Positions 6,073 through 24,312 of a stretch of DNA of 44,316 nucleotides are shown here, in pieces. How positions within the stretch are numbered: the first letter of the stretch is position 1; each line of letters opens with the position of its first letter. The notes under the pieces are model-generated. The model saw nothing but the letters and a program-made list of their open reading frames with translations, did not search any database and was not told the origin of the DNA. The stretch comes from an uncultured Bacilli bacterium. Its GTDB lineage: Bacteria; Bacillota_I; Bacilli_A; RF39; UBA660. The position numbers were made by a program, and so were the translations under genes. The stretch spans positions 1 to 44,316 of the forward strand of contig CANQAS010000006.1 in assembly GCA_947589535.1 (NCBI GenBank), given 5' to 3'.

Positions 6073-6101
6073 ATTATATCATAAAAAATTAAAATATTAT
6101 A
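6073..6101 (-). promoter_or_regulatory. Promoter of the HTH-erf gene group
   Basis: TATAAT -10 (6073-6078) with an upstream TGA giving an extended -10 (TGATATAAT). Counting 17 bp upstream, the -35 position (6096-6101) is a poor match. The 16-bp operator begins 8 bp beyond it, as at two other promoters. A weak -35 with a close upstream site suggests activator dependence. Confidence 0.55.
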
Positions 6102-6108: not shown

Positions 6109-6124
6109 TTAAAATTTATTTTAA
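6109..6124. promoter_or_regulatory. Operator copy TTAAAATTTATTTTAA
   Basis: Perfect 7-bp dyad around a 2-bp centre. Identical to 9635-9650, 24277-24292 and 24297-24312. It overlaps the last codons of the 64-aa gene at 6116-6310 and lies 8 bp upstream of the -35 position of the promoter at 6073-6101. Confidence 0.6.
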
Positions 6125-9578: not shown

Positions 9579-9607
9579 ATTATATCATAAAAAATTAAAA
9601 AAATCAA
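9579..9607 (-). promoter_or_regulatory. Early promoter
   Basis: Minus-strand TTGATT (9602-9607), 17-bp spacer, TATAAT (9579-9584). The same -35/-10/spacer combination occurs at 24241-24269, there with an extended -10. Expected start near 9572, 25 nt before the first ATG. Two operator boxes stand upstream at +8 and +28 bp from the -35 edge. Confidence 0.75.
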
Positions 9608-9614
9608 TAAAAAA

Positions 9615-9650
9615 TTAAAAATTTTTTTAAAAAATTAAAATTTATTTTAA
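9615..9650. promoter_or_regulatory. Tandem operators upstream of the early promoter
   Basis: The distal box 9635-9650 is the exact palindrome TTAAAATTTATTTTAA. The proximal box 9615-9630 (TTAAAAATTTTTTTAA) is a degenerate copy. They start 20 bp apart, and the proximal one begins 8 bp upstream of the -35. The spacing is identical to the pair at 24277-24312, so binding on one helix face beside RNA polymerase is likely. Confidence 0.6.
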
Positions 9651-9658
9651 TTGATATA

Positions 9659-9686
9659 TAAAAAAAGAGTTTAATATTTAAACTCT
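9659..9686 (-). terminator. Terminator of the late operon
   Basis: Minus RNA: stem AGAGTTTAA / TTAAACTCT (9 bp) with a 3-nt loop, followed by six or more U. It lies 38 bp after the endolysin stop and before the early promoter region, so it isolates the late unit from the early one. Confidence 0.85.
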
Positions 9687-9724
9687 TCTATTGTGCCATC
9701 CATATTTCTTAATACATCTTTAAA

Positions 9725-10330
9725 TTATTTACTTGTATCACAATGTACTGCATTACCCATATTTTTAGCATTTACTTTATATGATTTTTTGCCTTTTCTA
9801 CCCCAACCATTGCAATATGAGTAATTAGGTTTTTGTAAAGTAAACCAATAATTTATTATTTCTTTTCTATCACTTAAATTTTTAGTATGTGCATTTGTAA
9901 TATCTACTGCTCTACCTTTTGTATGATTAGAAGTGCTAGAACTACCACTTTGTTTACTATTCCAAGTCTTACATCTTAAAGGACTTGTTATAGTAGTAGC
10001 ACCATATTTATTTCTTAATTTTTGTACATTTTGTAATAAATAATCACTTAACTCTGCTGGATAACCAGTACAATATTTTCCTTTACAATGACAAGCAAAT
10101 TCTTCTAATTTAAAATTTTTACAATATTTATGTACCTTATAAGCGTTTCTTAATAAAATGTCTGTGTTTTTACCATATACTCCATCTTTATCTTGTTTTC
10201 TAAAAAAATATTTATTCTGTAAATCTTTATATGCTTGTTTAGTATTCTTTCCTACTTTACCATCTATTTTATCTTTATAAAATCCAAGTTCTTTTAAATA
10301 CTCTTGTCTTTTTTTAACTGATAATAACAT
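9725..10330 (-). CDS. Endolysin: peptidoglycan-binding plus M15 peptidase
   Basis: 201 aa. The N-terminal 70 residues are a peptidoglycan-binding fold (RQEYLKELGFYKDKIDGKVG, NTKQAYKDLQ, then KDGVYGKNT). From about residue 85 follows an M15 (VanY-like) zinc peptidase: the ITSPLRCKTWN segment, SNHTKGRAVDI with the HxxxxxxD metal ligands, and a terminal AVHCD supplying the last histidine. It cuts the stem peptide or cross-bridge of peptidoglycan at the end of infection. No signal peptide, so export depends on the holin encoded 1 bp upstream. Its SD is formed by the poly-Glu coding end of the holin gene. Confidence 0.9.
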   Translation of the reverse strand: MLLSVKKRQEYLKELGFYKDKIDGKVGKNTKQAYKDLQNKYFFRKQDKDGVYGKNTDILLRNAYKVHKYCKNFKLEEFACHCKGKYCTGYPAELSDYLLQNVQKLRNKYGATTITSPLRCKTWNSKQSGSSSTSNHTKGRAVDITNAHTKNLSDRKEIINYWFTLQKPNYSYCNGWGRKGKKSYKVNAKNMGNAVHCDTSK

Positions 10331-10331
10331 A

Positions 10332-10589
10332 TTATTCTTCTTCCTCCTCTTCTTCTAATTCTTCTCCATACTCATCTTCTTGAACTCCATTTTCTTTCTT
10401 ATATTTATTATTAGATATCTTTAATGCTACACCTAAAGCAGTAGTTAAAGCAGTTATAGTTGCACTAATTTCAATTCCATAAGGTATATTCCATATCTTG
10501 AATACTGTTGCTATAAATGTTGCTAATGCAGGTAAAACATATAATACTAAATCTTTTAAGAAATCATAAGTTTCATTTTTAAATTTCAT
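10332..10589 (-). CDS. Holin, phage Dp-1 family
   Basis: 85 aa. Two hydrophobic segments (about 10-30 VLYVLPALATFIATVFKIW and 38-58 EISATITALTTALGVALKIS) separated by NIPYG, then a charged tail of mostly Glu. This matches the Dp-1-type holins (YDFLK...YVLPALAT...IWxxPYGxEI). It forms the membrane lesion that releases the endolysin encoded directly downstream. The run of GAG/GAA codons at the end also serves as the endolysin SD, a compact coupling. Confidence 0.9.
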   Translation of the reverse strand: MKFKNETYDFLKDLVLYVLPALATFIATVFKIWNIPYGIEISATITALTTALGVALKISNNKYKKENGVQEDEYGEELEEEEEEE

Positions 10590-10604
10590 TTTCTCACCAC
10601 CTTT

Positions 10605-12689
10605 CTAATAATGTCCTATTGCGAACCATTGAAATCCAGTTGAATTTGTATTGCTTCTTGTTGCATATAATTTAAATCCACTTGTTGTGATATCTGTTGC
10701 TGACCAACCTTTCATTGTTGTTCCAGGTACTCCTGTGTCACAATTTACAAATACCAATGGTGCTTGTCCAAATGATGGACTAAAATTTACATTAATATAT
10801 ACTGGAGTATTTGCTACCATACTAGAAAATCTTTCTTGACCCCAACACATTTGTAAATCTCCTAAATATAAGTGTCCATCTCCACCACCCCATGAAAAAT
10901 CAAATCTTGATATATTAGGAAAACTAGGTACACTAGGTATATCACTTAATGATGCTATTTCTCCTCTTGCACAATACCTTAAATTTGAACCCGAACCAAG
11001 ATATCTACCATTCCAATTCTTTAACGTTTTTCCAGTAATTAAATAATCATCTGCATCAGTTAAACTTGAAAAGTTATCAGTATGTGCTACTGCGGTTATT
11101 CCTTGATCTGTATCAGGACTTCCATTTAAACTATAATAATATTTTGCACTTGTTATTTCTCTTGTACTCATCATATATGAAAATAAATTATCAGAAGTTA
11201 TTTTGCCATTTATATCTGCATCACCTTCAACAATTAAATTATCATATACTTTTGTATAATTATTTCCATCATTATCTTTATATTTAAATGTTGCTGGGTG
11301 TCCACTAGTTAACAACCCATTATATACATAAACTACCCCTAATTTATCTGTTATAGTTAGTTCATAATTTATTGTATCTTTAAAATTAAAATCTCCTAAT
11401 ATACCACTTAATGTTCCAGAAGTTTCTTGTGATATATCAATTGTTTTTTCTTCTCTAAATTGTTCTTCTTTATTTACTTTATATCTAAATATTGCTGATG
11501 GTTCTTGAAGATTAATTAATCCATCTCCGTTTGAATATTCCCATGTAATCTTATAATCAACTTCACTTCCTGTTGATTCTTTTCTACTTAAAACTCCTGT
11601 TATTTTAGGTATATTATAATCAACAACACTTAAATTTATTGTTGAACTTACTGATTTTCTACCATCGCTTGCTGTTATTGAATAACTATCTAAAAAACTT
11701 CCTTGTGCATTAATGGTAGCACTACCTCCACTTACTAATCCACTATAAGATGTTGCACCAGATACACTTATTGTTCTACCATATAACTTACCTGTACTTG
11801 AAGTAATCCTAAATTCTAACATCGGTACTGATACATTTCTAATTACTGTTTCTGGTGTTGGTTTGTAATATGAAAGAGGATGTCCTCCATACATTGCATC
11901 ATCGTTTAAATCTGTTACAAAAGTTTGAACATTTAATGAATAACTAGGAAGACTTGCTCTAACTGATATACTTGAACTTGTACCTAGTCCACTTGTTTCA
12001 ATATAAGCAGTTAAATAAGTATAAGTTGAAGTTCCAATTGCATTATATATTATTGCTCTTTCACTACTATTTAATATTTCATAACTACCACTATATACAT
12101 TTGTCTTTCTTATTGTTTGCGAACCTACTGTTAAGACTAGATTATTAGTATATCCACTAGTTCCACCACTAAAATAAGGAGTTACATATATATCTTCATC
12201 ACTATATATTGTTATTGATACATCATTTAATGTAGTTGGTACTGCTACACTTGATATTGTTATATTAGAACAAGATTTACTAGAAAGATAACCAGATGCA
12301 CTACTTCCACCACCTGTTCTTGCAACCCTAAACTTAATTCCTGTTAAACTTGTTTGTGATGCTGTTAGTCCAGTTATTGTATAAGTCTTTGATACTGTAT
12401 GTTTAGTAGTTCCACTCCAAGCAGTTCCTGTTCCTTTTATTTCTATTGCTGATTGTTCTGTTCCGTTTATAGTAATATATCCATTTAATCCCATAGATGA
12501 ACCAGTACCTAATGTACTTTCACTATATTTTAAATTAGCAGTTACACTAACTTTTATACTAACACTATTTGCTGTTCTATTACTTGGTTCTGCCTTAACT
12601 GTATATATTACATAAGGACTACCAGCAGTTGATTGTTGACTATTTAATATTGTTTGTTCTGCGAACATTTGAATATTTAATTTCATCAT
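10605..12689 (-). CDS. Tail structural/receptor protein, DUF859-like
   Basis: 694 aa. It begins MMKLNIQMFAEQ, sharing the KLNIQ(L/M)FA tag with the major capsid protein. Ser/Thr/Gly-rich beta modules follow, as in the DUF859 siphovirus proteins (YVIYTVKAEPSNRTANSVSI). Residues about 590-694 form a separate C-terminal domain (LYLGDLQMCWGQERF, YINVNFSPSFGQAPLVFVN, FQWFAIGHY) like the gp53-type/H-type lectin receptor-binding tips of tail fibres. Last tail gene before lysis, overlapping the tail-tip gene by 4 bp. Probably binds host surface glycans. Confidence 0.8.
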   Translation of the reverse strand: MMKLNIQMFAEQTILNSQQSTAGSPYVIYTVKAEPSNRTANSVSIKVSVTANLKYSESTLGTGSSMGLNGYITINGTEQSAIEIKGTGTAWSGTTKHTVSKTYTITGLTASQTSLTGIKFRVARTGGGSSASGYLSSKSCSNITISSVAVPTTLNDVSITIYSDEDIYVTPYFSGGTSGYTNNLVLTVGSQTIRKTNVYSGSYEILNSSERAIIYNAIGTSTYTYLTAYIETSGLGTSSSISVRASLPSYSLNVQTFVTDLNDDAMYGGHPLSYYKPTPETVIRNVSVPMLEFRITSSTGKLYGRTISVSGATSYSGLVSGGSATINAQGSFLDSYSITASDGRKSVSSTINLSVVDYNIPKITGVLSRKESTGSEVDYKITWEYSNGDGLINLQEPSAIFRYKVNKEEQFREEKTIDISQETSGTLSGILGDFNFKDTINYELTITDKLGVVYVYNGLLTSGHPATFKYKDNDGNNYTKVYDNLIVEGDADINGKITSDNLFSYMMSTREITSAKYYYSLNGSPDTDQGITAVAHTDNFSSLTDADDYLITGKTLKNWNGRYLGSGSNLRYCARGEIASLSDIPSVPSFPNISRFDFSWGGGDGHLYLGDLQMCWGQERFSSMVANTPVYINVNFSPSFGQAPLVFVNCDTGVPGTTMKGWSATDITTSGFKLYATRSNTNSTGFQWFAIGHY

Positions 12690-14668
12690 ATAATAAATTC
12701 TCCTATTCCAGTATTTCCTTCATCATCTTCATATTGTATATATAAAGCATGAGTTCCTATAATTGTATCTCCTGTTGCAACTAAATTTTTAGTAAATACT
12801 ATTGAATTGCTTTTAAAACTTCTTGTGCTTGTATCAAATCTTGTGTCATCTACATATCCACTAAAAAATATTTCTTCTCCATCTTTATTTTTTATTTGAA
12901 CTCCTTTTTCATTAAATCTTCCTGTTGTATCACTTATAACATTACCATCGCCATCTTCTTTTTGAATTAATAATCCATCTATATCAAATTTTCCTGTTTC
13001 ACTGACAACAGTTGTAACATTTACATTATTTCCTTCTTCATCTTTATAAGTTCCATTTGCTATTTGTTGAATTTCTGTCTTTGTATATGTATCAGTTTGT
13101 AATTGTCTTACATTATTTTCAATATTTGTTATTTGTGTATTTACATTTTGGGTAGTTTCTGCAACTTGATTTAATAAATCTTTAAAGTTTCCTTCTAATT
13201 CATTTATTGAATTTGTGTATCCACCTACAATAACATTTTCATATACATTATAGCCCACATCTTCAACATTATCTCCTACTTGATAATCAACTCCTTCTTC
13301 CATACTATTAAATTCATAAGTTATATTTTCTGGTATTGTATCTCCTATTTGATAATCTTTTCCTTGAATTAATCTTACATATTCTCCGTTTACTAATTTA
13401 TAATATTCTTTTTCTTCTTGAAATGTCAAATCTTGAGTTACTATAATTTTATAATAATCTTTTTCTTCTTTGAATATTGTATCTTGAGTTATTACATAAC
13501 TATTAATTCCATTTACTGTGATATCAATTTCTGTTTGTGTATTTACTACTGCTTCAATAGTTGCTTCATTCTTTCTAACTATAATATATGCTTGATTTAT
13601 TTTTCTATCTGTTTTACTCATATTTTTATATTCATCTGGTGCTTCATCAGGCAATTCTGTATATATGTTTTCTGTTAGCCCTTGTTCTACTTTTGGTTCA
13701 TCATTAAACATAATACAAGTATATTTTGTTCCATTTACATTTGCATAATATTTATCACATGCTTCATAATACATTAATCCTGTTGATACATAATCATTTA
13801 TATAAAATTCAAGCCCATTTAATTTATCTAATATTTCTGGTATATATTCATCTCTGTTGTTTTCATTCATTATTTGGTTATCTTCAATTTGTAATGCTAT
13901 TCTTTCTTCTTCTGGCAAGTCTTCAGGAATACACTTATAAATACTATCACTTCCACCACTTCTGGTTAGTATAATTGTATTTATTGCTCCAAATTTCTGT
14001 CCAAATTTTACATTTATATCTTTAAAATATTCTTCATCTATTTCATCTTGTGTATCTTCAACATATTTTATAAAAGCATTTTCCTCATTATCTAGCATTA
14101 TATTTCCAGCAATAACTGCTGACAACTCATCTAACACATCTCTATAAGTGTATCCTAAATTAGTTCCATCTTCTCCAATATATGGGTCAAATTGCATAAC
14201 TTTATCATAGTTAACAAATTCTGTTTCTTTATCTTTAAATTCTATATTTATTGTGGTTAACAATCTAGTTATATATTCTCTTATTGTCATAGGAAAAAAC
14301 GCATCTTTAACACCAGCATAGTCTATCATAGAATTAATCATTTTATCATAACACACATATTCATAAGTTGTTGTATCTTCATTATATTTCTTTTCGTTTA
14401 TATAATAATATCCATAATCTAACCATTCGTAGTCTTCTCCTACTAATAACCCAAATTCATATTTTATTCTTTCTCCAATTTGTAATTCTACATCGGTTTC
14501 AAAATTTAGTCCTTTCATAACACTCTTTAATAAACTTGTGTTTAATATAGGATATATATAATATAATTCTTCTCCAGTTATTATTAAATTATCAGTAGTG
14601 ATTTTATTATCTATTTCTCTACCCATTTCTTTTATATTAAATTTAAAATCTTCTGTTCTTGCTCTCAT
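12686..14668 (-). CDS. Tail-tip / tail-associated protein (Tal-like, 660 aa)
   Basis: The N-terminal 350 residues resemble the hub part of siphovirus tail-tip proteins (VELQIGERIKYEFGLLVGED, YYYINEKKYNEDTTTYEY, MTIREYITRLL), which cap the tail tube. A region of short repeats follows (ITQDTIFKEEKDYYKIIVTQ, DYQIGD, DYQVGD), then a coiled coil (about 490-540) and a beta C-terminus with an IGTHALYIQYEDD end. Position after the distal tail gene and before DUF859 fits the order tape measure, Dit-like, Tal, fibre. SD AGGAG. The repeats may vary between relatives. Confidence 0.75.
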   Translation of the reverse strand: MRARTEDFKFNIKEMGREIDNKITTDNLIITGEELYYIYPILNTSLLKSVMKGLNFETDVELQIGERIKYEFGLLVGEDYEWLDYGYYYINEKKYNEDTTTYEYVCYDKMINSMIDYAGVKDAFFPMTIREYITRLLTTINIEFKDKETEFVNYDKVMQFDPYIGEDGTNLGYTYRDVLDELSAVIAGNIMLDNEENAFIKYVEDTQDEIDEEYFKDINVKFGQKFGAINTIILTRSGGSDSIYKCIPEDLPEEERIALQIEDNQIMNENNRDEYIPEILDKLNGLEFYINDYVSTGLMYYEACDKYYANVNGTKYTCIMFNDEPKVEQGLTENIYTELPDEAPDEYKNMSKTDRKINQAYIIVRKNEATIEAVVNTQTEIDITVNGINSYVITQDTIFKEEKDYYKIIVTQDLTFQEEKEYYKLVNGEYVRLIQGKDYQIGDTIPENITYEFNSMEEGVDYQVGDNVEDVGYNVYENVIVGGYTNSINELEGNFKDLLNQVAETTQNVNTQITNIENNVRQLQTDTYTKTEIQQIANGTYKDEEGNNVNVTTVVSETGKFDIDGLLIQKEDGDGNVISDTTGRFNEKGVQIKNKDGEEIFFSGYVDDTRFDTSTRSFKSNSIVFTKNLVATGDTIIGTHALYIQYEDDEGNTGIGEFII

Positions 14669-15045
14669 CTTTTACTCCTAGCAATAAATGAAATACTAAA
14701 TGGTTGATTTTCTAATATATTCATATTATTTACTTCCCAATCACCAGTATATGTACTAATACTTATTTTTTGTTTTTTAATTGGGTCATAATATTTTAAT
14801 GTTTGTGTTGAACTATCTAATATTGGTGCTATTTCTTCTAATTCCTCTTTACTTAATCTTCTAAAATTTACACTTATTTTAGGAAATATTCCAATAAGTG
14901 TTCCACTCATTTTTCCTTTTAAATTTCTTCCACTATCACTTGCCCACAATTTAGGATATTGAAATGTTACATCTACAATATAATTACCTAAATTTATAGT
15001 CTTACCATTTGCTGTTACTTCTAAACTATCTTTATCAATAAACAT
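14665..15045 (-). CDS. Distal tail protein, DUF6711-like
   Basis: 126 aa, beta-rich. MFIDKDSLEVTANGKTINLG, the VTFQYPKLWASDSGRNLKGK segment and LKYYDPIKKQKISISTYTGD match the DUF6711 proteins found between tape measure and tail-tip genes in Firmicutes siphophages. Likely a baseplate hub or Dit-like adaptor joining tail tube and tip. Overlaps the next gene by 4 bp (ATGA type). SD AGGTAGGTG. Confidence 0.8.
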   Translation of the reverse strand: MFIDKDSLEVTANGKTINLGNYIVDVTFQYPKLWASDSGRNLKGKMSGTLIGIFPKISVNFRRLSKEELEEIAPILDSSTQTLKYYDPIKKQKISISTYTGDWEVNNMNILENQPFSISFIARSKR

Positions 15046-15053
15046 AATATCAC

Positions 15054-17297
15054 CTACCTATTCCTAATAAAATCATTATCTGCTTTTACTTGTTCAGTAG
15101 TTCTTTGCATTTCTCTACTATCTAATTTTGTTATGTTAGTTAAATTAATTGTTACATATTTTCCAATTGATTTACCTAATATTTCCATTTGTTGTTGGTC
15201 GGTTAAAGGGATAATTCCTTCTGGTCCTCCTTCTCCTCCCATATCAATTGGTACGCCTCTTCCAGGGTTATTAATAATACCACCTTTTCTATGAAATTTT
15301 GCTATTGTACTTGCGAAACTTAATGTTGGGAAGATAACACTAAATAATGAACTTCCTAAATTCTTTAAGAAAGAACCAATTGTAGAATTTGCTTTCTTTG
15401 TACTTGCACTTAATGTAATTGTGTGATTTTTAGCAACATCCTTTATTGCATTTGTTACATCATCTACTGTCTTTTGGTCTGCATCAACATTAATGTTTGC
15501 TTTATAATTACCTTTAACATCATCTAAAGATTTTTTTAGTTTTTCTATTCTTTCTTTGTTTGTTTTATATTCCTCGCTATTTTCTTTTAGATTTTCATTT
15601 GTTAGTTCTAAATTACTTATTTCATTTCTTAAAGCATTCATATATTGAACTTTTTGTTGTGTGTTCATATATCCTTGGTCATATAATGCTTTTAACATTT
15701 CTAAATTGTTTTGGTTTGCTTCAGTGTTATCATTCATTAATTGAGTGTTCTTTTTATATTCTCCAGTTAGTTTTTCTTTCCATCCTAGGTGTTGTGATAA
15801 TTCCCTATTTAAATATTGATTATCAGAAATTTGACTAAGTATCAAATCAACATCTTTTTTTGCTACATCATTATTTATTTCTCCTGCTTTTGCTTTTTCA
15901 ACTATTGCATTTTTTGTCTTTTCAGTAGATTTAACATAACTATTGCTTAAGGCAATATCCTCTTCTATATCTTTTTTTAATTCTTTTCCTTCATCTATAA
16001 CTTTCTTCATACCATTTACAGCAAGTCCTACTAGTATAACATCAAGAACTGCTAACACGCCTACTAAAGTAGCACCACCTCCAGCGGATAAGCCAATTTT
16101 ACCAATTAATGTACTTATTAATGAACCAATAGTTTTAAATGTGCCACCAATTAGTCCTAATTTACTTGCTAATTTTAATCCTATAATTGCGCCTATTACT
16201 GCTAATAATCTTTGTGGTTTATCATCTACCCATTTGCCAAATGCTTCTAATGCTGGTTTTAAAATACCATTCCAGAAAGTTTTCACAATTGGTACTATGT
16301 TTTCATTTATCCAATTAAATACAACTTTTAATCCTTCAACTATTTTATCAAGTCTTTTTTTAGTGTCTTCACTTAATAAATTGAATTTACTTAAATCTTC
16401 TGTTGGTAGTGTTACTCCACCACCTCCACCACCATAAGAAGTTGCACCACTATCTTGTAAAACATTCATTTCATCAAATCCTGCTACTGTCTTTTGAAGT
16501 TCTTTTGCTGATTTACCTGCACCATCTAAATTATCTTTTGTTTTACCAAAAGCATCAGCAGTAGCATTTGCGAATAAATTTACTCCTGTTAAAGAATATA
16601 CTATATAATTAATTGCTTGCAATACTTTATATACCCATTTAACTATTCTTTCTATTGTCTTTTCTAAAGTCTTTGCTAAAGCCCATCTAATATATTCCAA
16701 ATCACTTGCTAATTTTTCATTTGATTGTGATAATGTGCTAACTGCACTTCTTACGAACATATAAGCACTTCTAACACTAAAAATTGCTAAAGCCCATTTT
16801 CCAACTTTCTTTATAAGACTTGTTGTTTTATTTCCTATATTATCTATTGATTGTCCTATTTTACCATATACTTCTTGCATACGATTTTCTTGTTCTTGAG
16901 CATCATTATATTCTTGTTGCTTCTGTTTTAATTCTTGTAATTTTTGTACTTCTATTTTTCTTTTGTCTAAATTTTTACTTAACTCAGCACCAATTTCTTT
17001 AGATTTATCAAGCACACTAGAATATTCTTGTTTTACCTTTTGTATTTGCTCTAAAGCATATTTTTGATTTGCTCCTGGTGTATATTCTCCTGCCTCATCT
17101 GCTCTTTTCCATTCATCTTGTATTTCTCTTACTTGTCTTTTATAATCTGATAAATCAATTTTTAATGCTTGTTTCTTAAGACTTTCCCCTTGTTTATCTA
17201 ATTTTTTTATTTCAGTTTCTGCATCTTTAATTTTTGATTTAAAATCTTTATCTTCTACATCAACATTAAAAGTTAACCATCCTACTACATTTTTCAC
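15054..17297 (-). CDS. Tape measure protein (747 aa)
   Basis: GTG start at 17295-17297 after AGGAAGTGATG. An N-terminal coiled coil of 140 residues (SKIKDAETEIKKLDKQGESL), a hydrophobic region (IGQSIDNIGNKTTSLIKKVG and following AIFSVRSAYMF), a Gly-rich stretch near residue 290, several central membrane-like helices (about 365-425, VIGAIIGLKLASKLGLIGG) and a long helical C-terminus ending with GRGVPIDMGGEGGPEGIIPL. This is the usual layout of tape measure proteins, which set tail length and may help DNA cross the membrane. At 747 aa it predicts a tail of roughly 110 nm by the common 0.15 nm-per-residue rule. Confidence 0.9.
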   Translation of the reverse strand: MKNVVGWLTFNVDVEDKDFKSKIKDAETEIKKLDKQGESLKKQALKIDLSDYKRQVREIQDEWKRADEAGEYTPGANQKYALEQIQKVKQEYSSVLDKSKEIGAELSKNLDKRKIEVQKLQELKQKQQEYNDAQEQENRMQEVYGKIGQSIDNIGNKTTSLIKKVGKWALAIFSVRSAYMFVRSAVSTLSQSNEKLASDLEYIRWALAKTLEKTIERIVKWVYKVLQAINYIVYSLTGVNLFANATADAFGKTKDNLDGAGKSAKELQKTVAGFDEMNVLQDSGATSYGGGGGGVTLPTEDLSKFNLLSEDTKKRLDKIVEGLKVVFNWINENIVPIVKTFWNGILKPALEAFGKWVDDKPQRLLAVIGAIIGLKLASKLGLIGGTFKTIGSLISTLIGKIGLSAGGGATLVGVLAVLDVILVGLAVNGMKKVIDEGKELKKDIEEDIALSNSYVKSTEKTKNAIVEKAKAGEINNDVAKKDVDLILSQISDNQYLNRELSQHLGWKEKLTGEYKKNTQLMNDNTEANQNNLEMLKALYDQGYMNTQQKVQYMNALRNEISNLELTNENLKENSEEYKTNKERIEKLKKSLDDVKGNYKANINVDADQKTVDDVTNAIKDVAKNHTITLSASTKKANSTIGSFLKNLGSSLFSVIFPTLSFASTIAKFHRKGGIINNPGRGVPIDMGGEGGPEGIIPLTDQQQMEILGKSIGKYVTINLTNITKLDSREMQRTTEQVKADNDFIRNR

Positions 17298-17303
17298 ATT
17301 TCA

Positions 17304-17879
17304 TCACTTCCTTTTTATCCCTGTCAATTCATAAAATTTATCAACACTGTCTTGTTGTTTTTTTGTTAAAGGTTTTTTGTGTTTCTTTAATGCGTATCTT
17401 TTTTGCATTTTCTCTATTTTATTTTTTTCTTTAACATCTTTAATATCTCTTGTATCATAATTTCTTATTTCTCTAATTCTATTTAAAACACATTTATCTG
17501 TTAGTCCATTTAAATAGGTATAAAAGTCCCACCATTCAATGTTTTCTTTCATTAAGTCAATTCCATAATCACTTTTAAAACTAGCACATATAAGTCTAAA
17601 ATCTTGGTTTAAATCCATGTCTGGTTCTTCTATGTTATTATCATCAGTTTCTTCACCACAACTTAAATATTTATATGCTAAATCAAATAACTTGTTATAA
17701 TTTTCTTTATCTTTTAAAGCATCTTCTCCAAAAAGCATATAAATAATTGCTAGTGTTTTCTCATAATCACTTATTGTTTCATCAAATATTAATTCATTAC
17801 ATTTTAAAGCAACTTTATAACTTGTATTTATTGGATATTTCTTTTCTCCTACTTGAACATAATGAGGGTTAGTATTCAT
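17304..17879 (-). CDS. Tail assembly protein, bacteriophage Gp15 family
   Basis: 191 aa. INTSYKVALKCNELIFDE, a helical acidic middle, and DFRLICASFKSDYGIDLM followed by IEWWDFYTYLNGLTD, the hallmark of the Gp15 family that sits between the tail chaperone and tape measure. The ATG overlaps the preceding stop as TAATG and lies in its -1 frame. It probably works with the preceding gene as a tape-measure chaperone. Confidence 0.85.
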   Translation of the reverse strand: MNTNPHYVQVGEKKYPINTSYKVALKCNELIFDETISDYEKTLAIIYMLFGEDALKDKENYNKLFDLAYKYLSCGEETDDNNIEEPDMDLNQDFRLICASFKSDYGIDLMKENIEWWDFYTYLNGLTDKCVLNRIREIRNYDTRDIKDVKEKNKIEKMQKRYALKKHKKPLTKKQQDSVDKFYELTGIKRK

Positions 17880-18376
17880 TATTTTAATATGTCCTCTTGG
17901 TCTTTAATCATCTCTTTATACTTTTCAACTATCTTCTCATCAGTAGTATCCATATTTTCTTGAAATACTTTTTCAAGTATTGGAGAAATTGCTTCACCTA
18001 TATCTTCAAACATATTCCAATAAGGTTTTCTGCCCATAATATCAAGTATCATTTGTGTTTTTCCTTCTCCTAAAAATAAGTCTAATGCTTTCATATCTAA
18101 TTTAAAATATTCATTTAATGCTTTTACTTTATCTTCTTCGTTCTTACTTAATAATTTTTTACCTTTAACATCTTGTCTTTTATCAATCATCATAAATTTA
18201 TGTCTTAAATTTTTGAAATTCTTGTTATGTTCTTCTAATAATTGTTGATATCTTAATGGTAGTTCAACGTCATCCATATCAAAATCTAAAGTTTTTCCTG
18301 TATCATTTCCAAATTGGTCTTTAATTCCAACTCTTATTATATTATCTTTTTTTAATTGTATAAAATTTTCTGTCAT
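17879..18376 (-). CDS. Tail assembly chaperone (165 aa)
   Basis: Located between the major tail protein and Gp15, where siphophages carry gpG-like tail chaperones. Helical protein (LPLRYQQLLEEHNKNFKNLR, LDMKALDLFLGEGKTQMILD). SD AAAGGAG. The next gene begins in the -1 frame at the TAATG junction. I see no strong slippery heptamer, only A-rich TTA AAA TAA, so reinitiation is more likely than frameshifting. Confidence 0.75.
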   Translation of the reverse strand: MTENFIQLKKDNIIRVGIKDQFGNDTGKTLDFDMDDVELPLRYQQLLEEHNKNFKNLRHKFMMIDKRQDVKGKKLLSKNEEDKVKALNEYFKLDMKALDLFLGEGKTQMILDIMGRKPYWNMFEDIGEAISPILEKVFQENMDTTDEKIVEKYKEMIKDQEDILK

Positions 18377-18446
18377 TTTATACTCTCCTTTCTTAATTAA
18401 AAAAATAAGGTGGGCTTTATTTTACCCACCCACCCTTTAAGGTTTT

Positions 18447-18941
18447 TTATATTGCTACATCTGCTGTAAATGTTGGTTTTCCGCCCTCTATTTGTACTGT
18501 TCCAACAACTGGGTCGCCATTGTAATAAATAGAATATTCAATTACTGGGTTCTCTCCAGTTGCATAACTTGTTACGACTACTGCACAATCATATTTAGTT
18601 GCTTTATATTTACTTTCGGTTTCATCATATAAGTCAATATCTAATACTTGAGTGTTAACTTTACTACCAACTTTAGCATTTCTTCTTAAGTCATTTACAA
18701 AATCATAAACTTCATCACCAAAATAACACTTTTGAGAAACATCACCTTGAATTTGATAACTTTCTAATGTAGAAGTTGCATTTTTATGAATTATCCATTT
18801 CTCTGTTTCTACTTGTGGGTTGTAAGATTGTCCATAATCAGTTATACCTACACCAATTATAGCCCACTCTTCTTTTTCTTCACTTGGTTTTACATTTAAG
18901 TATGAAGCAATTTGGTCTCTTGTTACTTTTGTATATGCCAT
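18447..18941 (-). CDS. Major tail (tube) protein
   Basis: 164 aa, beta-rich with a short N-terminal helix. AYTKVTRDQIASYLNVKPS, EWAIIGVGITDYGQSYNPQ, VSQKCYFGDEVYDFVNDLRR and a DCAVVVTSYATGENPVIEY strand match tail tube proteins of Gram-positive siphophages. A strong SD (AAAGGAGG) fits high expression. It polymerises in hexameric rings around the tape measure. The end (PTFTADVAI) shows no Ig-like extension. Confidence 0.85.
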   Translation of the reverse strand: MAYTKVTRDQIASYLNVKPSEEKEEWAIIGVGITDYGQSYNPQVETEKWIIHKNATSTLESYQIQGDVSQKCYFGDEVYDFVNDLRRNAKVGSKVNTQVLDIDLYDETESKYKATKYDCAVVVTSYATGENPVIEYSIYYNGDPVVGTVQIEGGKPTFTADVAI

Positions 18942-18968
18942 CTTATTCCTTTTCCTCCTTTATTTATT

Positions 18969-19391
18969 CTATATGTTATATGTTATCTGTATTTGAATAT
19001 CAAACACAGCATTCTTTGTTTGTCCACTTATCATAGTTCCACAATTTAAACAACTTATGCTTTCAATTCCATCTATATCAGGTAAAATTTTATTTTTATT
19101 ATTTTCAAATATTACTTTTTCAAATGTTTCAAAAAAGCCAACATTATTTAAATTATTTATTACATCTTGTGAATATGCAACTCTACTTCTAAAAGAATAA
19201 ACATCTCTATGAATTTCATAACCTGTTATCCATTTTTCAACAACGCTTTCAGTAGGTATTTTATTAATTGAATAATTATTAATATCATCGCTTAACATAT
19301 CAACATTTATTTGCTTGCATTTGCTATTTATTGCTTTAACAACATCAAATAAATACGACCTTAATTTTTCAACTCTTAAATTATTATTCAT
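18969..19391 (-). CDS. Tail terminator / minor capsid-type protein
   Basis: 140 aa. Helical start (NLRVEKLRSYLFDVVKAINS) and a mixed alpha/beta body ending FDIQIQITYN, the pattern of the minor capsid/tail-completion proteins encoded just before the major tail gene. By position it should cap the tail tube at the head end. Immediately downstream of the 115-aa connector. Confidence 0.7.
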   Translation of the reverse strand: MNNNLRVEKLRSYLFDVVKAINSKCKQINVDMLSDDINNYSINKIPTESVVEKWITGYEIHRDVYSFRSRVAYSQDVINNLNNVGFFETFEKVIFENNKNKILPDIDGIESISCLNCGTMISGQTKNAVFDIQIQITYNI

Positions 19392-19397
19392 TTAATT

Positions 19398-19745
19398 TTA
19401 TTTCCTTCCATATTTTTGTTTTAATTCTCTAATAATGTCATCTTTCTCTGCACTTAACATTTTTTTATCCCAATAAGGTCCAGTACCTGGAGTAGTATAA
19501 TTCCAAGGCACTCCTGATTGACTTCCATAATATTGAATTGTTGCATAAGAACTTGTAAATGTGATACTATTATTTGTTTCTATTCTTAATTCATTTAAAT
19601 GAGTTTTACCTGTATCTCCACTAAATGGGATGTATTTATACATGTGTCTATATACACTATCGACTGCATCTTTCCGTAATTCTCCACCTACATTTATTCC
19701 TAAATCAACTTCAATGTTTGTTATTCCTTTAAGTTTAACACTCAT
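19398..19745 (-). CDS. Head-tail joining protein, minor capsid type
   Basis: 115 aa. VKLKGITNIEVDLGINVGGE, DAVDSVYRHMYKYIPFSGDT and a YYGSQSGVPWNYTTPGTGPY stretch followed by DKKMLSAEKDD identify the minor capsid / HK97-gp10-like connectors of Firmicutes siphophages. It lies third in a set of four small connector genes whose starts and stops touch or overlap. Confidence 0.75.
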   Translation of the reverse strand: MSVKLKGITNIEVDLGINVGGELRKDAVDSVYRHMYKYIPFSGDTGKTHLNELRIETNNSITFTSSYATIQYYGSQSGVPWNYTTPGTGPYWDKKMLSAEKDDIIRELKQKYGRK

Positions 19746-20092
19746 TATTTACCACCTAAATGTATGTGTGGTCTTGTACCAAATGTATTATCAGTTATTG
19801 CAGTTATATTGTATATTTCTTCTTGGTCTAAATCTTGTTGTGTTATTATATCCAGAGTTAAATTTCCTTTAATAAGTATATCTCCAACCTTGAAATTTTT
19901 AACATCTAAACTTGGGTTATTTTGATAAAAAATTCTAATTTCAACATCGTTAGCATCATCATATCCTTTATTGGTACCAGCACCTCTTCCACCGAACCAC
20001 CAAATATTCTCATAATTAAATCTAGTCCAAATTTCTATGTTATTATTTTCATCAAAATCTTTGTGATATACTGTTAAATCAGCATTTTTCAT
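19745..20092 (-). CDS. Head closure / connector protein, DUF6751-like
   Basis: 115 aa, beta-rich. ADLTVYHKDFDENNNIEIWT, RFNYENIWWFGGRGAG and VGDILIKGNL resemble the DUF6751 connector proteins. A C-terminal RPHIHLGGK is typical. Its start overlaps the previous stop. Probably closes the portal channel after packaging. Confidence 0.7.
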   Translation of the reverse strand: MKNADLTVYHKDFDENNNIEIWTRFNYENIWWFGGRGAGTNKGYDDANDVEIRIFYQNNPSLDVKNFKVGDILIKGNLTLDIITQQDLDQEEIYNITAITDNTFGTRPHIHLGGK

Positions 20093-20493
20093 TAAACACC
20101 TCTATATAAATAAGGTGTACCATCTTCAAGTTTACAATCTATTAAATATGTTCTTATAATATTACTCATCTCATTACTTTTAACATTTTCAATTGAACTA
20201 TCTACACTGTTACTAGTTGAGTTATAACTATAACTATAACCATCAATATTTTCACTTGCCAATGCTCTATCTTGTTCTTCCAAATTCTTATAACTGTTAG
20301 CAACATTTATAAGTTTATACATACATAATTTAACTTCATCTACTTGTGATAATAAATTCTTTAATCTTCCAAATGTGTATTTATCTATATATTGTCTTGC
20401 TTCAAATTCTAATAAATTAAAAGGCATTTCTTCTAGTAAACCTCCTAATTCTTTATACTCTGTATATGTTAAGTATTGTCCACTAAATTCCAT
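20092..20493 (-). CDS. Head-tail connector (gp6-like)
   Basis: 133 aa, helical. SGQYLTYTEYKELGGLLEEM, PFNLLEFEARQYIDKYTFGR and LKNLLSQVDEVKLCMYKLI match connector proteins that follow the major capsid gene. SD AAAGGAGG stands 7 nt before the ATG, 14 bp after the stop of the capsid extension. A Ser-rich loop near residues 85-105. Confidence 0.8.
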   Translation of the reverse strand: MEFSGQYLTYTEYKELGGLLEEMPFNLLEFEARQYIDKYTFGRLKNLLSQVDEVKLCMYKLINVANSYKNLEEQDRALASENIDGYSYSYNSTSNSVDSSIENVKSNEMSNIIRTYLIDCKLEDGTPYLYRGV

Positions 20494-20509
20494 AAAATGC
20501 CTCCTTTAT

Positions 20510-20926
20510 TTATATAGCAATGTCTAATTCTACTTCTTTTAAATTAAGTGTTCTTGTTTCTTTTCCTTCACTAGTTATTTCAATAGTATTGTCTTTGTTA
20601 TGTATTTGAAATACTATTAAACCATCTTTTTCATCAACTGCAACAGGTTTCTTTAATTTTGCTCCTGTTCCTTTAAGTTCACATTTAACAGTTCCTTTTG
20701 CTTGACCTTTTGCTTCTTCAAAATATAATGGTAAATAATTTCCTGATTGCTCATCATCTATTGATGAAAATTCAGTAAAATTTGATACATATTTTAATTT
20801 ACCTGTTACATTATCTCCTTCTATACTTACATTTTCACATAGGTCTTGTACTGTTTTTTCTCCTAAATTTAGTGAAGTTTCATTACTTGGAACACTTACT
20901 TTTATTTTGCCCTCTTCGGGCGTGCT
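20510..20926 (-). CDS. C-terminal extension of the capsid protein, made by +1 frameshift (138 codons)
   Basis: Open frame with TAA at 20510-20512 and, upstream, a stop at 20948-20950 inside the capsid gene. No ATG, GTG or TTG occurs anywhere in it, so it cannot start by itself. It follows the capsid frame in +1 phase from CCC TAG. The product begins STPEEGKIKVSVPSNETSLN and contains LKYVSNFTEFSS, EQSGNYLPLYF and VKCELKGTGAKLKKPVAV, an Ig-like beta sandwich of the kind displayed on phage capsids. It gives a 441-aa minor form of the coat protein, probably exposed on the head surface. Confidence 0.85.
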   Translation of the reverse strand, partial: STPEEGKIKVSVPSNETSLNLGEKTVQDLCENVSIEGDNVTGKLKYVSNFTEFSSIDDEQSGNYLPLYFEEAKGQAKGTVKCELKGTGAKLKKPVAVDEKDGLIVFQIHNKDNTIEITSEGKETRTLNLKEVELDIAI

Positions 20927-20930
20927 AGGG
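20909..20930 (-). promoter_or_regulatory. Programmed +1 frameshift site: CCC TAG plus hairpin
   Basis: Capsid frame ends ACT CCC TAG (930-925). A peptidyl-tRNA on CCC can slip to CCT, after which AGC ACG continues the other frame. Three nt past the stop begins a hairpin with GCCC/GGGC arms (918-921 and 909-912) and a 5-nt loop, the most GC-rich spot in the surroundings. An alternative pairing CCCT/AGGG would hide the shift site itself. Confidence 0.75.
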
Positions 20931-21836
20931 AGTTTTTGTGAATTCTGCTAGCACAACTTTTGTTTCATCAGTTAAAGCAACTGTATAATGTTCATCAATA
21001 GAAATGTCTGTTGTTCTATTTAATGTATGTCTTTCAGTTTCAACATTTGCATTTCTCTTCATATAAATTGTTACTGCTGATGTTTCATCTCCTGTTTGTG
21101 TTTGTGGTTTTAATTGTACGATAGGACATTGATATTTATTTAAACTTGCTTGTTCTGCTACATTATCACATGCTTTTCTTGATACAACTATTCTTGTATT
21201 TGCTATCATACCAATTTCACCTCTCATAATAACATTGTTATTATATTTATCATTACTTATGAAATTAGCATCTTTTCTTAAAGTTGCAACTTGGTCTGGG
21301 TGAATAAACATTACTTTTTCAACATTTTCTTCTTCTCCAAATTTTGCTATTGCATCAACAACATTGTTATAACTTATTTCACCCTCTGCCTCAAATTTTA
21401 ATTTTGCTTTCTTTAATTCATCAAATACATCATTATCAATTTTACTAGCAATAGATTTTGCTAATTGGTTATTTGCTTCTCCAACAGGATTTCCATAACC
21501 ACTTAATATTGCTTCATCAGTTAAAGTTACTGCCTTCATTGCTTTCTTAACTGTGTATGTATCAGTATCAGTTTCTAGTTTAACTGTTCCTGCTTCTACT
21601 CCTTCTGCAACATCTTCTGCATCACCAATGTATTTATATCTTGGTACTGTTATTGTACTTCCAGGTTGTCCTACAAGTGTATTATCAACCTTTGCAAATG
21701 GTGTAGCAACTATTGCATTTACTATTTTAGCACTAATCATTGGTGCCATTACTTCTGGGTCAACTAAATTTTCTAATTTAGTAGTTCCAGCCGCAAATAA
21801 TTGAATATTTAATTTAAAATTTTTATTCTTTTCCAT
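20925..21836 (-). CDS. Major capsid protein, HK97-fold (N4-gp56-like)
   Basis: 303 aa in the zero frame. N-terminal tag FKLNIQLFAAG, then LVDPEVMAPMISAKIVNAIV, a GQPGSTITVPRYKYIGDAED segment, AVTLTDEAILSG and a P-domain near KVMFIHPDQVATLRK, as in the N4-gp56 group of major capsid proteins. It forms the icosahedral shell. It ends with TKTP and TAG, where a fraction of ribosomes likely shift to +1 and add 138 codons. The scaffold gene is directly upstream and connectors follow. Expressed from the consensus promoter at 22500-22529. Confidence 0.92.
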   Translation of the reverse strand: MEKNKNFKLNIQLFAAGTTKLENLVDPEVMAPMISAKIVNAIVATPFAKVDNTLVGQPGSTITVPRYKYIGDAEDVAEGVEAGTVKLETDTDTYTVKKAMKAVTLTDEAILSGYGNPVGEANNQLAKSIASKIDNDVFDELKKAKLKFEAEGEISYNNVVDAIAKFGEEENVEKVMFIHPDQVATLRKDANFISNDKYNNNVIMRGEIGMIANTRIVVSRKACDNVAEQASLNKYQCPIVQLKPQTQTGDETSAVTIYMKRNANVETERHTLNRTTDISIDEHYTVALTDETKVVLAEFTKTP

Positions 21837-21850
21837 TTCCTTTTCCTTTC

Positions 21851-22405
21851 TTATTCATTAAATTTTTTGAATAACTCAGGATTTTCTTGTTTAAATGCTA
21901 CCCTTTCTTTATATCCCATTTTATCAAAATCTTCTTTTGATACATTACCTGTTTCAATATCTTTAACATCAGGCATATCTATTTGAGCATTTGGGTTAAC
22001 AAATATATCAGTTTTATCCTTTGTTATTTCTTCGAATAAATCTTTTGCTGATTTACCCATATTTGCATTATCTTTTAATGCTGTTTTAATTTCATTAATA
22101 ATTGAATTTTTAGTATACTCATTTACAAATTGTTTATCTTTAAGAACACTATTTATATTATTTGTTAAAATTGTATCTTCTTCTTTTAACTTTTTATCTT
22201 GTTCTTCTTTTTCAACTTTTGCATTTAATTCATCATACTTTTCTTTCCAATTATTATTTTCTGTTGAATTTTCTTTTAAGGTAGATAATTTGTTTTGTAA
22301 ATCAGTAATCTTTTCTTTATCTTTTGTTACTAATTTACCGTGTTCTGCCATAATACTATCTATGGTTTCATCATCTAATTCTAATCCTTTTAAAAATTCT
22401 CTCAT
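21851..22405 (-). CDS. Capsid scaffolding protein
   Basis: 184 aa, almost entirely helical and charged. LKGLELDDETIDSIMAEHGK start, a long coiled coil (about 30-80), then INEIKTALKDNANMGKSAKD and a C-terminal MGYKERVAFKQENPELFKKF that resembles the capsid-contacting end of phage scaffolds. First gene after the strong promoter at 22500-22529, directly followed by the major capsid gene. SD GAAGGAGAGG. Confidence 0.88.
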   Translation of the reverse strand: MREFLKGLELDDETIDSIMAEHGKLVTKDKEKITDLQNKLSTLKENSTENNNWKEKYDELNAKVEKEEQDKKLKEEDTILTNNINSVLKDKQFVNEYTKNSIINEIKTALKDNANMGKSAKDLFEEITKDKTDIFVNPNAQIDMPDVKDIETGNVSKEDFDKMGYKERVAFKQENPELFKKFNE

Positions 22406-22436
22406 ATAATATTCCTCTCCTTCACTTGTTATCGAA

Positions 22437-22493
22437 GTCGTGTCTCCGTGTGATTAAAATATTTTTAATAGCATATCGTTGCTATCTCACGAC
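22437..22493 (-). other. Structured 5' leader of the capsid operon
   Basis: The expected transcription start (about 22493) coincides with the first base of a closing stem GTCGTG / CACGAC (22488-22493 with 22437-22442). Inside is a second hairpin ATAGC / GCTAT with an 8-nt loop (22468-22485). A stem at the very 5' end suggests an mRNA stabiliser or a protein-binding site controlling scaffold and capsid synthesis. Confidence 0.5.
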
Positions 22494-22499
22494 AATTAA

Positions 22500-22529
22500 A
22501 TTATAGTATATAACAAAAAAAGATGTCAA
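22500..22529 (-). promoter_or_regulatory. Consensus promoter of the scaffold-capsid operon
   Basis: TTGACA (22524-22529), 18-bp spacer, TATAAT (22500-22505): full consensus for a sigma-A promoter. The -35 overlaps the 3' arm of the terminator at 22514-22540. It gives the capsid genes their own strong transcription behind the island at 23.5-24.8 kb. Confidence 0.85.
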
Positions 22530-22540
22530 ATACGACACCT
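22514..22540 (-). terminator. Terminator before the capsid promoter
   Basis: Minus RNA: AGGTGTC / GACATCT stem (7 bp, one G.U) with a 6-nt loop and a run of seven U. Lies about 100 bp after the stop of the ADP-ribosyltransferase-like gene. The 22541-22639 stretch between them is AT-rich and holds nothing else I can recognise. Confidence 0.75.
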
Positions 22541-22639
22541 CTTTTTGCATTTAATAATGAATTAAAAAAATAAGAATATAATATAGACTTGTTTTGTCTA
22601 TAAAATTATAATATCACTAATTATTAATAATTTCAAATA

Positions 22640-23161
22640 TTATTTCTTATTCTTTTTAGGAAAATATTCAAATTCGTTGATATCATCACCAGCAAATCTT
22701 ATATCATCTGCTTTTACTTTTAATTCTAAAATCTTTCCTTTACCTTTTAAATTACTTTCATTATGTATCTTTGCATATTCTTTGCTTAATGTTATCCAAT
22801 CTCCATCATTAATACTTTCTCCAGTTGTTGCTCTGTATATAGTTATTTCTTTATTTGGGTTATCTTTAATACTCTTCAATGCTTCAAAACTTTCTTTATT
22901 TTCTATTCTACTCATATCAATATAATTTTGTGGTTTTTCATAAAAATCTTTTGGATATGCAATATTTCCTTTTGTAATATCATCTGCTGTTGCTCCGTCT
23001 TCGTCTGGTCTATGAAACATTTTATATCCATTTTGTTCTTCTATTCTTTTTTGTTCTGCAAGATATTTTTGTCTTTCTTCTCTTTCTTTATGTGCTTTTT
23101 CAACTAATTTCTTATGTTCTTCCTCTTTGAATTTTCTATATTCTTCTACATTTTTATAACC
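22640..23161 (-). CDS. ADP-ribosyltransferase-like domain, -1 frameshift product
   Basis: The -1 frame is open from the slippery site at 23161-23169 to TAA at 22640 (173 codons after the shift). After about 40 charged coiled-coil residues comes a domain with the R-S-E signature of ADP-ribosyltransferases: YRATTG (Arg), GDWITLSKEYAKIHN (Ser), and EFEYF with an ExE pair near the end. An internal ATG at 23018-23020 could give the domain alone (126 aa), but I see no clear SD for it. Such ARTs occur fused to phage minor head proteins and may be injected with the DNA to modify host proteins. Target unknown. Confidence 0.65.
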   Translation of the reverse strand, partial: GYKNVEEYRKFKEEEHKKLVEKAHKEREERQKYLAEQKRIEEQNGYKMFHRPDEDGATADDITKGNIAYPKDFYEKPQNYIDMSRIENKESFEALKSIKDNPNKEITIYRATTGESINDGDWITLSKEYAKIHNESNLKGKGKILELKVKADDIRFAGDDINEFEYFPKKNKK

Positions 23162-23421
23162 TTTTTTAATGCTTCAATTTCTTCTTGTATTTTACCTTTT
23201 GCAAAAATTCCTTTTGCTTTTTCAAATTGTTTTTCTAATTCTTTAATCTTTTCTTCATTGTTATTTTCTTTTAAATCATCTTCTTTATTATCTTGTTTTT
23301 TATCTTTTATTTCATTCTTTTTGAATTTTCCACTTTCTTTCATAGCAGTTTTCAAATCTACACCATTTTTAATAAATATTTTTCTTCCACCAACTGTTCT
23401 CCAAACTCCATCTTCAAACAT
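23146..23421 (-). CDS. Minor structural protein, N-terminal part of the ART fusion
   Basis: 91 aa in the zero frame. It begins MFEDGVWRTVGGRKIFIKNG, a W-R-x-(I/V)-G-G-R-x-(I/V)-F-I motif common at the ends of phage minor head proteins, then a Lys/Glu-rich coiled coil and TAG. With the -1 shift the product is a 260-aa fusion with the ADP-ribosyltransferase-like domain; without it a 91-aa protein. SD AAAGGTG. It has its own promoter-like box just upstream. Confidence 0.65.
   Translation of the reverse strand: MFEDGVWRTVGGRKIFIKNGVDLKTAMKESGKFKKNEIKDKKQDNKEDDLKENNNEEKIKELEKQFEKAKGIFAKGKIQEEIEALKKVIKM
23161..23169 (-). promoter_or_regulatory. Candidate -1 frameshift heptamer A AAA AAG
   Basis: In the zero frame the codons are TTA AAA AAG followed by GTT. 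A AAA AAG is the most efficient bacterial -1 slippery sequence (as in dnaX). Slipping leads from EALKK into GYKNVEEYRKF of the ART frame. A plain one-base indel in the A6 run (mutation or assembly error) is the alternative. Confidence 0.6.
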
Positions 23422-23440
23422 ATATTCATCACCTTTTATA

Positions 23441-23449
23441 ATTATATCA
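23441..23449 (-). promoter_or_regulatory. Extended -10 promoter of the ART-fusion gene
   Basis: TGATATAAT, extended -10, about 20 bp upstream of the ATG. The -35 position falls in the U-run of the terminator at 23465-23491 and matches poorly. Weak on its own, but it is placed between a terminator and a gene. Confidence 0.45.
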
Positions 23450-23464
23450 TAATTACTTATTAAT

Positions 23465-23491
23465 AAAAAATGCTATTATTTTAATAGCATT
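23465..23491 (-). terminator. Terminator of the small early-type cassette
   Basis: Minus RNA: AATGCTATTA / TAATAGCATT, 10-bp stem with a 3-nt loop, then six U. The stem overlaps the stop codon of the zinc-ribbon gene. Confidence 0.85.
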
Positions 23492-23750
23492 AATTTTTAC
23501 TTCTATAACTTAATCTTTCTTGATATTCTTTTAAATGGCATTCTTCACACACAGTATATCCTAGTCCTAGTGGGTTGTGTACTTGCATAGAAGTATAACC
23601 ATCTCCATATCGAATTTCTTTTCCACACTGACAACAATTAATTATTTCTTCCATATTATCTGTACATAAAGGAACATTCCATTCATCAGGTATTATGTAA
23701 TCTTCATATTTTTGTTCTTTTTCATTAAATTTTTGATATTTTCTCTTCAT
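23490..23750 (-). CDS. Zinc-ribbon protein (86 aa)
   Basis: Two CxxC pairs (CCQCGKE near residue 40 and VCEECH near 69) enclose a short beta segment, a zinc ribbon or treble clef. The N-terminus is charged (FNEKEQKYEDYIIPDEW). SD AGGAG before the ATG. Last gene of the three-gene cassette that starts at the operator-controlled promoter at 24241-24269. Function unknown; zinc ribbons in small phage genes often bind RNA polymerase, nucleic acid or host proteins. Confidence 0.65.
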   Translation of the reverse strand: MKRKYQKFNEKEQKYEDYIIPDEWNVPLCTDNMEEIINCCQCGKEIRYGDGYTSMQVHNPLGLGYTVCEECHLKEYQERLSYRSKN

Positions 23751-23758
23751 ATAATCTC

Positions 23759-24052
23759 CTATTCTTCTTCTGGTTTCTTACTAGATAAGAATGTTATTCT
23801 TTCTGCAATTAGTTTTAATTCTTTTCCTTCTTCTTGTTGTAATTTACCTTTAACACCAACAGTATCATTTATTTTACAGTATTCTTTAACACTTTCAGCA
23901 ATATTATTATATAATTCTACATTAATGTAATCTGTTTCATATATTCCATCTTCATTTTTATATGGTCTTGGTACTGATAGTGTTAAAGTTAAATTGTTTC
24001 CTTCTTGATACGTACTTTTAATTTTTCCTACAATTACTACTTAGTTCAACAT
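23759..24052 (-). pseudogene. Second SSB-like gene with ochre codon at position 4
   Basis: A near-ideal SD (AAAGGAGG) stands 6 nt before ATG TTG AAC TAA, then the frame continues open for 93 codons: VVIVGKIKSTYQEGNNLTLT, the YETDYINVELYNNIAESVKE segment, NDTVGVKGKL and ITFLSSKKPEEE. This is a complete OB-fold SSB core that lacks the usual acidic tip. Most relatives would read MLNK at the start, so a single A to T change explains the stop. Either a recent nonsense mutation, a sequencing error, or a conditionally read gene. No other start codon exists before the core. Confidence 0.75.
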
Positions 24053-24206
24053 TCTCTTCCTCCTTTCCTATTAAACTTTCTAATAATATATCATCTAGTC
24101 TTTCAATAATATAATCAATATCAACTCTATTTTCTAACCCTTTTTCAATATTAATATTTTGATTATATTTTAATTCTTCTATAAATTCACTTAATCTTTC
24201 TTTCAT
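24018..24206 (-). CDS. Hypothetical helical protein (62 aa)
   Basis: Small acidic helical protein (MKERLSEFIEELKYNQNINI, then YIIERLDDILLESLIGKEEE). AAAGGAGAGATG precedes its ATG. First gene behind the early-type promoter at 24241-24269. It overlaps the SSB-like gene by 35 bp in another frame. No family recognised. Confidence 0.55.
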   Translation of the reverse strand: MKERLSEFIEELKYNQNINIEKGLENRVDIDYIIERLDDILLESLIGKEEENVELSSNCRKN

Positions 24207-24240
24207 TTTTACATCTCTCCTTTTTTAAATTTCTAAACTT

Positions 24241-24269
24241 ATTATATCACTAAAAATTAAAAAAATCAA
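24241..24269 (-). promoter_or_regulatory. Early-type promoter of the 24.2-kb cassette
   Basis: TTGATT (24264-24269), 17-bp spacer, TATAAT (24241-24246) with TG extension (GTGATATAAT). Same boxes and spacing as the early promoter at 9579-9607, with the same operator layout upstream. This cassette is therefore probably switched with the early genes although it lies within the late region. Confidence 0.75.
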
Positions 24270-24276
24270 TAAAAAG

Positions 24277-24312
24277 TTAAAATTTATTTTAAAATGTTAA
24301 AATTTATTTTAA
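24277..24312. promoter_or_regulatory. Tandem operators TTAAAATTTATTTTAA
   Basis: Two exact copies at 24277-24292 and 24297-24312, starting 20 bp apart. The first begins 8 bp upstream of the -35 of the minus-strand promoter. They also lie upstream of the plus-strand gene at 24418 and could serve both directions. Confidence 0.65.

Follow-up and report, generated by a model that had tools for sequence, protein, structure and literature searches.

A repeated 16-bp box at three promoters of an uncultured phage is probably a UP element for host RNA polymerase

Upstream of three minus-strand promoters in the DNA analysed here (the window, 44,316 bp) stand identical copies of a 16-bp palindrome, and the question they raise is whether they are operators of a special regulator or docking sites of the host RNA polymerase. 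The window is contig C6 of an AT-rich bin of 1.13 Mb (1,126,946 bp), whose organism we infer from the binning to be the host. It carries tailed-phage genes (terminase, portal, minor head protein, scaffold, major capsid, tape measure, endolysin) as well as Erf, SSB and a DnaD/O-like initiator, and nearly all genes of the window lie on the minus strand. Among the ORFs scanned (all of the larger and part of the short ones) there was neither an integrase nor a lysogeny module. The two ends are identical over 77 bp (1–77 = 44240–44316), an overlap typical of the assembly of a circular or permuted complete genome. The genome is therefore circular or terminally redundant, with 44,239 bp of unique sequence, and the contig looks like the whole of it.

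The exact box, TTAAAATTTATTTTAA, was found at 6109, 9635, 24277 and 24297, as reported by the first-pass annotation, and the rest of the bin has no further copy. The degenerate copy listed at 9615 is also present, with two symmetric positions changed and the dyad kept (TTAAAAAAATTTTTAA). Looser dyads of the form TTAAAAN4TTTTAA are strongly enriched, with six in the 44-kb window and 10 in the remaining 1.08 Mb. In 100 windows generated with a third-order Markov model no 16-mer with a 7+2+7 dyad exceeded two copies, compared with one in four copies in the real window. These data confirm that the repetition of the box is real and non-random. The remaining loose matches, at 37268 (inside the gene 37005–37595) and at 38940, have no such promoter, and a broad scan for any palindrome above any promoter-like site was too noisy for use. 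The boxes, the three promoters (P24, P9 and P6) and a neighbouring gene discussed below are as follows.

24297–24312, minus strand: distal box (box 2) of P24, TTAAAATAAATTTTAA on the minus strand, at about −78 to −63
24277–24292, minus strand: box 1 of P24, read as a UP element, 7 bp upstream of the −35
24241–24269, minus strand: P24 core, −35 TTGATT (24269–24264), N17, −10 TATAAT (24246–24241), TGA extended −10
9635–9650, minus strand: distal box (box 2) of P9, exact copy
9615–9630, minus strand: box 1 of P9, read as a UP element, symmetric variant
9579–9607, minus strand: P9 core, −35 TTGATT (9607–9602), N17, −10 TATAAT (9584–9579), TGA extended −10
6109–6124, minus strand: single box of P6, best UP match among the three promoters (12–13/14)
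6073–6101, minus strand: P6 core, poor −35 TATAAT (6101–6096), N17, −10 TATAAT (6078–6073), TGA extended −10
5843–6058, minus strand: small HTH_3 (Cro/C1-like) protein, candidate regulator in an alternative reading

P24 precedes an operon of small genes that runs from 24206 downward (a 62-aa ORF, an SSB-like ORF and others), upstream of the capsid genes. P9 precedes the replication/recombination operon (AAA ATPase, 7834–9066; DUF7192 gene, 7014–7853; and onward). P6 is an internal start within the P9 operon, followed by the HTH_3 gene and then by the Erf, SSB and replication genes. The fixed geometry described previously was reproduced: the gap between box and −35 is 7 bp in each case, so that the box starts at the eighth base upstream; P24 and P9 have a second box 20 bp beyond the first; and P6, with one box, does have the worst −35 (TATAAT). 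Control of the plus-strand gene at 24412/24418 by the same region was not established: the sole −10-like sequence of that gene lies near 24371, and some 36 bp separate the end of the boxes from the position expected for its −35.

Two features had been overlooked. All three boxed promoters share the extended −10 TGA TATAAT, and their spacers between −35 and −10 are near-identical (14–16 of 17 positions; shuffled spacers reach 16 with p of about 5e-6). The shared spacers indicate that what is repeated is an entire promoter cassette, and the box is a component of it. P24 and P9 agree at 39 of 45 positions upstream and 15 of 17 in the spacer, and identity outside the cassette is at the level of chance (10–12/30). 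P6 has retained the box, and its 7-bp gap and −35 have diverged.

At the boxed promoters the box spans roughly −58 to −43, which is the register of a UP element, in DNA that is 96–100% AT. The UP element is the site of the RNA polymerase α-CTDs; its consensus, AAAWWTWTTTTNNNAAA, is 17 nt long, with subsites near −42 and −52 (PMC2412878). Promoters were scored as the number of matches to 14 positions of this SELEX consensus (from the UP element of the E. coli rRNA promoter), set at the canonical offset of 4 bp from the −35. P24 scored 9/14, P9 10/14 and P6 12/14 (64–86%). The mean of 10.3 exceeds that of shuffled sequences (7.9, p 0.009) and rises to 11.0 at an offset of 3 bp, while four unboxed promoters of the window average 6.0, which equals chance. 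In B. subtilis, UP elements have been called at more than 60% identity to the consensus (PMC4495994); the boxed promoters exceed this value in register, and their boxes lie in the stretch of about −40 to −60, directly above the −35, that is typical of UP elements. P6 and relatives have the proximal AAA subsite, which is replaced by CTT or TTT at P24 and P9. Partial (half) UP elements are reported to activate (PMC4495994), and a good UP element is able to offset a poor −35 (PMC2412878). The combination found at P6, hardly any −35 and the best UP match, is what would be expected if UP contacts compensate for a poor −35.

Relatives of the AAA ATPase gene behind P9 were found in 23 viral contigs; searches with the Erf protein found none, and the HTH protein gave one weak match only. 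For 11 relatives, the best −35/−10 pair in the 700 bp that precede the orthologous AAA gene was chosen blind to the DNA above it. Their mean UP score is 10.6/14 at 3–4 bp from the −35, compared with 7.0 ± 0.5 when the same 60 bp were reshuffled (0 of 5000 shuffles reached the observed score), and the profile has a second peak 11–12 bp, about one turn, higher. Two of the 11 promoters (L162 and L163) have the same sequence, which leaves ten independent cases. Composition does not explain the score, because several of these phages have 42–49% GC, and A- and T-tracts mark their promoters against a background of mixed DNA. Eight scaffold/capsid-operon promoters of relatives scored at chance (6.75 vs 6.6).

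The closest relative, the record G193 (L005, L075, L076, L148), has a UP score of 12 at its AAA-operon promoter (L148, 3413) with 6 of 8 dyad pairs, and of 11 at a promoter in the P24 position (L076, 8325; about 4.9 kb before the capsid gene if the record is circular) with 4 of 8. Another promoter in the P24 position (L006, 1757) scored 13, with 6 of 8 pairs. Since high UP scores go together with only 4–6 of 8 pairs, the conserved property is the pattern of A- and T-tracts in register and not the palindrome. The element of L164, TTGAAAAACTTTTCAA, is itself a 7+2+7 dyad, 7 bp before TTGACA.

The bin encodes an α subunit with an intact CTD. This domain can be aligned over its full length with that of B. 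subtilis, DNA-contact segments included; VR-YNCLK and NLGKKS are part of the match, as are the segments that hold the equivalents of E. coli R265 and G296. The promoter of the host 16S rRNA has phased A-tracts every 10–11 bp that run into TTGACA. If the bin does hold the true host of the phage, both the machinery and the habit of placing A-tracts above a −35 are thus present there. The bulk of putative host promoters, mostly unverified pattern matches, gave no UP signal.

We consider it probable, at roughly three chances in four, that the boxes are UP elements, docking sites of the host α subunit, and not operators of a special regulator. This reading draws on the sequence and register of the elements, their recurrence in relatives, their restriction to one class of promoter, the conserved α-CTD and the A-tracts of the rRNA promoter. 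P24, P9 and P6 are then best read, from their sequence, as early promoters of an already known kind, the UP/−35/TGn/−10 type of phi29 and T4. The phage would carry three copies of a cassette into which the box is built together with −35, TGn, −10 and a near-identical spacer, and unmodified host σA polymerase would recognize them at once upon infection. Contacts of the α-CTDs with the UP element would let these presumably strong promoters outcompete those of the host. Box 2, two helical turns further up, may offer an extra α-CTD or A-tract site on the same face of the DNA; the absent −35 of P6 would be compensated by its extended −10 together with the strongest UP match.

The closest known parallels are the phi29 early promoters C2, A2b and A2c, which use UP elements in B. 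subtilis (Meijer and Salas, 2004, cited in PMC4495994). Like these, the window has AT-rich elements directly above the −35 of what would be phage early promoters for a Bacillota σA polymerase, here recognized from sequence alone. Unlike those of phi29, the elements here form a 16-bp dyad that is nearly perfect and recurs with identical letters at three promoters, in tandem at two. T4 early promoters form an 'uber' UP/−35/TGn/−10 class with extra conserved positions (PMC2988021). The window shares with them all four elements, conserved positions beyond these (here the spacer) and several promoters per phage, but has three such promoters where T4 has dozens; moreover, P6 has no recognizable −35, and phage and host are unrelated to those of T4. 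The elements share with the E. coli rRNA UP consensus (PMC2412878) its length, its register to the −35 and 9–13 of 14 positions, whereas P24 and P9 do not have its proximal AAA subsite.

If the boxes are UP elements, a supposed new phage regulon gives way to a well-known mechanism that recurs in register across uncultured phages of very different GC content. The UP score would be a simple means of distinguishing between early and late promoters in these genomes, and the cassettes are candidates for strong promoters that could be used as they stand in uncultured hosts with AT-rich DNA. However, several observations count against this reading. The four boxes are letter-perfect and dyadic, more uniform than UP function requires; the variant at 9615 is altered symmetrically; P6 keeps its box despite a diverged gap and −35; the proximal AAA is missing at P24 and P9; and the bulk of putative host promoters, mostly unverified, has no UP signal.

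An alternative proposal is that the boxes are operators of a dimeric regulator encoded by the phage, for which the HTH_3 protein expressed from P6 is the most plausible candidate. From its site at −58 to −43 it would work either as an activator or as a repressor of polymerase loading, with cooperative binding at the tandem sites of P9 and P24. The exact 16-bp dyad in four copies and the two-turn spacing would suit such a protein, and the perfect identity of the boxes together with the symmetric change at 9615 is the best argument for a dimeric binder. The HTH_3 gene adjoins the single-box promoter, and the corresponding operons carry similar elements in G193, the relative with an ortholog (61% over 61 aa). 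Yet besides one match of 27 residues this is the only clear ortholog, and UP-like elements are spread much more widely. AAA promoters keep the element in relatives with no detectable HTH ortholog in the fetched flanks, a search that is incomplete since these are mostly 3.5 kb. The exact symmetry is lost in relatives (4–6 of 8 pairs), including G193 with its ortholog (6/8 and 4/8), the conserved part extends outside the box into the −10/−35 spacer, and no integrase or lysogeny module was seen among the scanned ORFs. We regard the operator reading as unlikely. Of the first-pass interpretation, one shared element at fixed geometry upstream of three −35 hexamers, on the activating side and offsetting the worst −35, was borne out; its assignment as the operator of a dimeric activator or cooperative regulator was not, the register and sequence fitting a UP element. 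Binding of the box by one of the three HTH proteins of the window, as proposed there, also gained no support, because the elements recur in relatives mostly without an HTH gene in the fetched DNA.

The boxes might also serve twice, as UP elements first and as operators once the HTH protein from P6 has accumulated, switching the early promoters off (or further on). This is distinctly unlikely; if true, one 16-bp sequence would time the whole early programme, an unusually economical early switch. Likewise improbable is the more general case of a UP element later recognized or occluded by a phage factor that shuts the early promoters. In favour of such a factor stands the letter-perfect identity of the boxes, which UP function alone does not explain, and it has precedents in phage G1 gp67, which disrupts the α-CTD/UP contact (PMC4495994), and T4 ModA, which modifies Arg265 of α (PMC2988021), but none was identified in this analysis. 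Recent copying of one promoter region, with the box having no specific function, would fit the similarity of P24 and P9 noted above but is hardly credible given flanks at chance identity past the cassette, a P6 that kept the box and not the −35, and an element in the same register in distant relatives.

Operators of a phage repressor or immunity system are unlikely, as the scanned ORFs did not include an integrase. The boxes were also rejected as iterons or an origin, because they are arranged as promoters are and a more convincing array of iterons exists at 1034–1102. There, 3.5 tandem 20-bp repeats (AAATTTTTTGGGTACCCCCC) lie within the DnaD/O-like initiator gene (612–1379) and are probably the iterons of the replication origin.

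Several other features of the window were noted. The SSB-like frame directly behind P24 (23759–24052, minus strand) starts ATG TTG AAC TAA GTA GTA ATT GTA GGA, with an in-frame stop at codon 4 and the rest of the gene open; the other SSB gene of the window is at 3437–3853. In another phage, the relative L165, at least six near-identical TTGATT-(A/T spacer)-TATAAT promoters lie between 2545 and 7644, so that it too multiplies one cassette.

The major capsid gene (region 20513–20935, minus strand) ends in CCC-TAG and is followed in the +1 frame by an extension of ∼140 codons that has no start codon. The junction reads CCC T AGC ACG CCC GAA GAG GGC in the +1 frame, with a GCCC/GGGC hairpin just behind. 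Capsid genes of two relatives (L040 and L041) end in CCC-TAA and have homologous extensions (75% and 32% identity), and those of relatives without the extension end mostly in AGTTTATAA. The end of the gene looks like a programmed +1 frameshift that yields a capsid-extension fusion, which we take to be similar to that of Listeria phage PSA.

The capsid operon may have a leader RNA (22410–22506, minus strand), located after its strong promoter (TTGACA at 22529) and before the scaffold gene. Its hairpin at 22433–22448 (minus strand), CGGAG-ACACGA-CTTCG, shows compensatory changes in four of five pairs among seven distinct relative sequences, with 35 of 35 cells paired, a result that carries selection because the hairpin is seen only in a hand-cut segment. 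RNAalifold on an automatic alignment of the leader found nothing, and no Rfam family matches the window.

Finally, the cluster at 34172–37012 comprises a TET-associated glycosyltransferase (36275–37012), a protein with the N-terminal domain of SAM synthetase (34172–34978) and, between them, a 437-aa protein with no assigned function. It possibly serves hypermodification of DNA bases.
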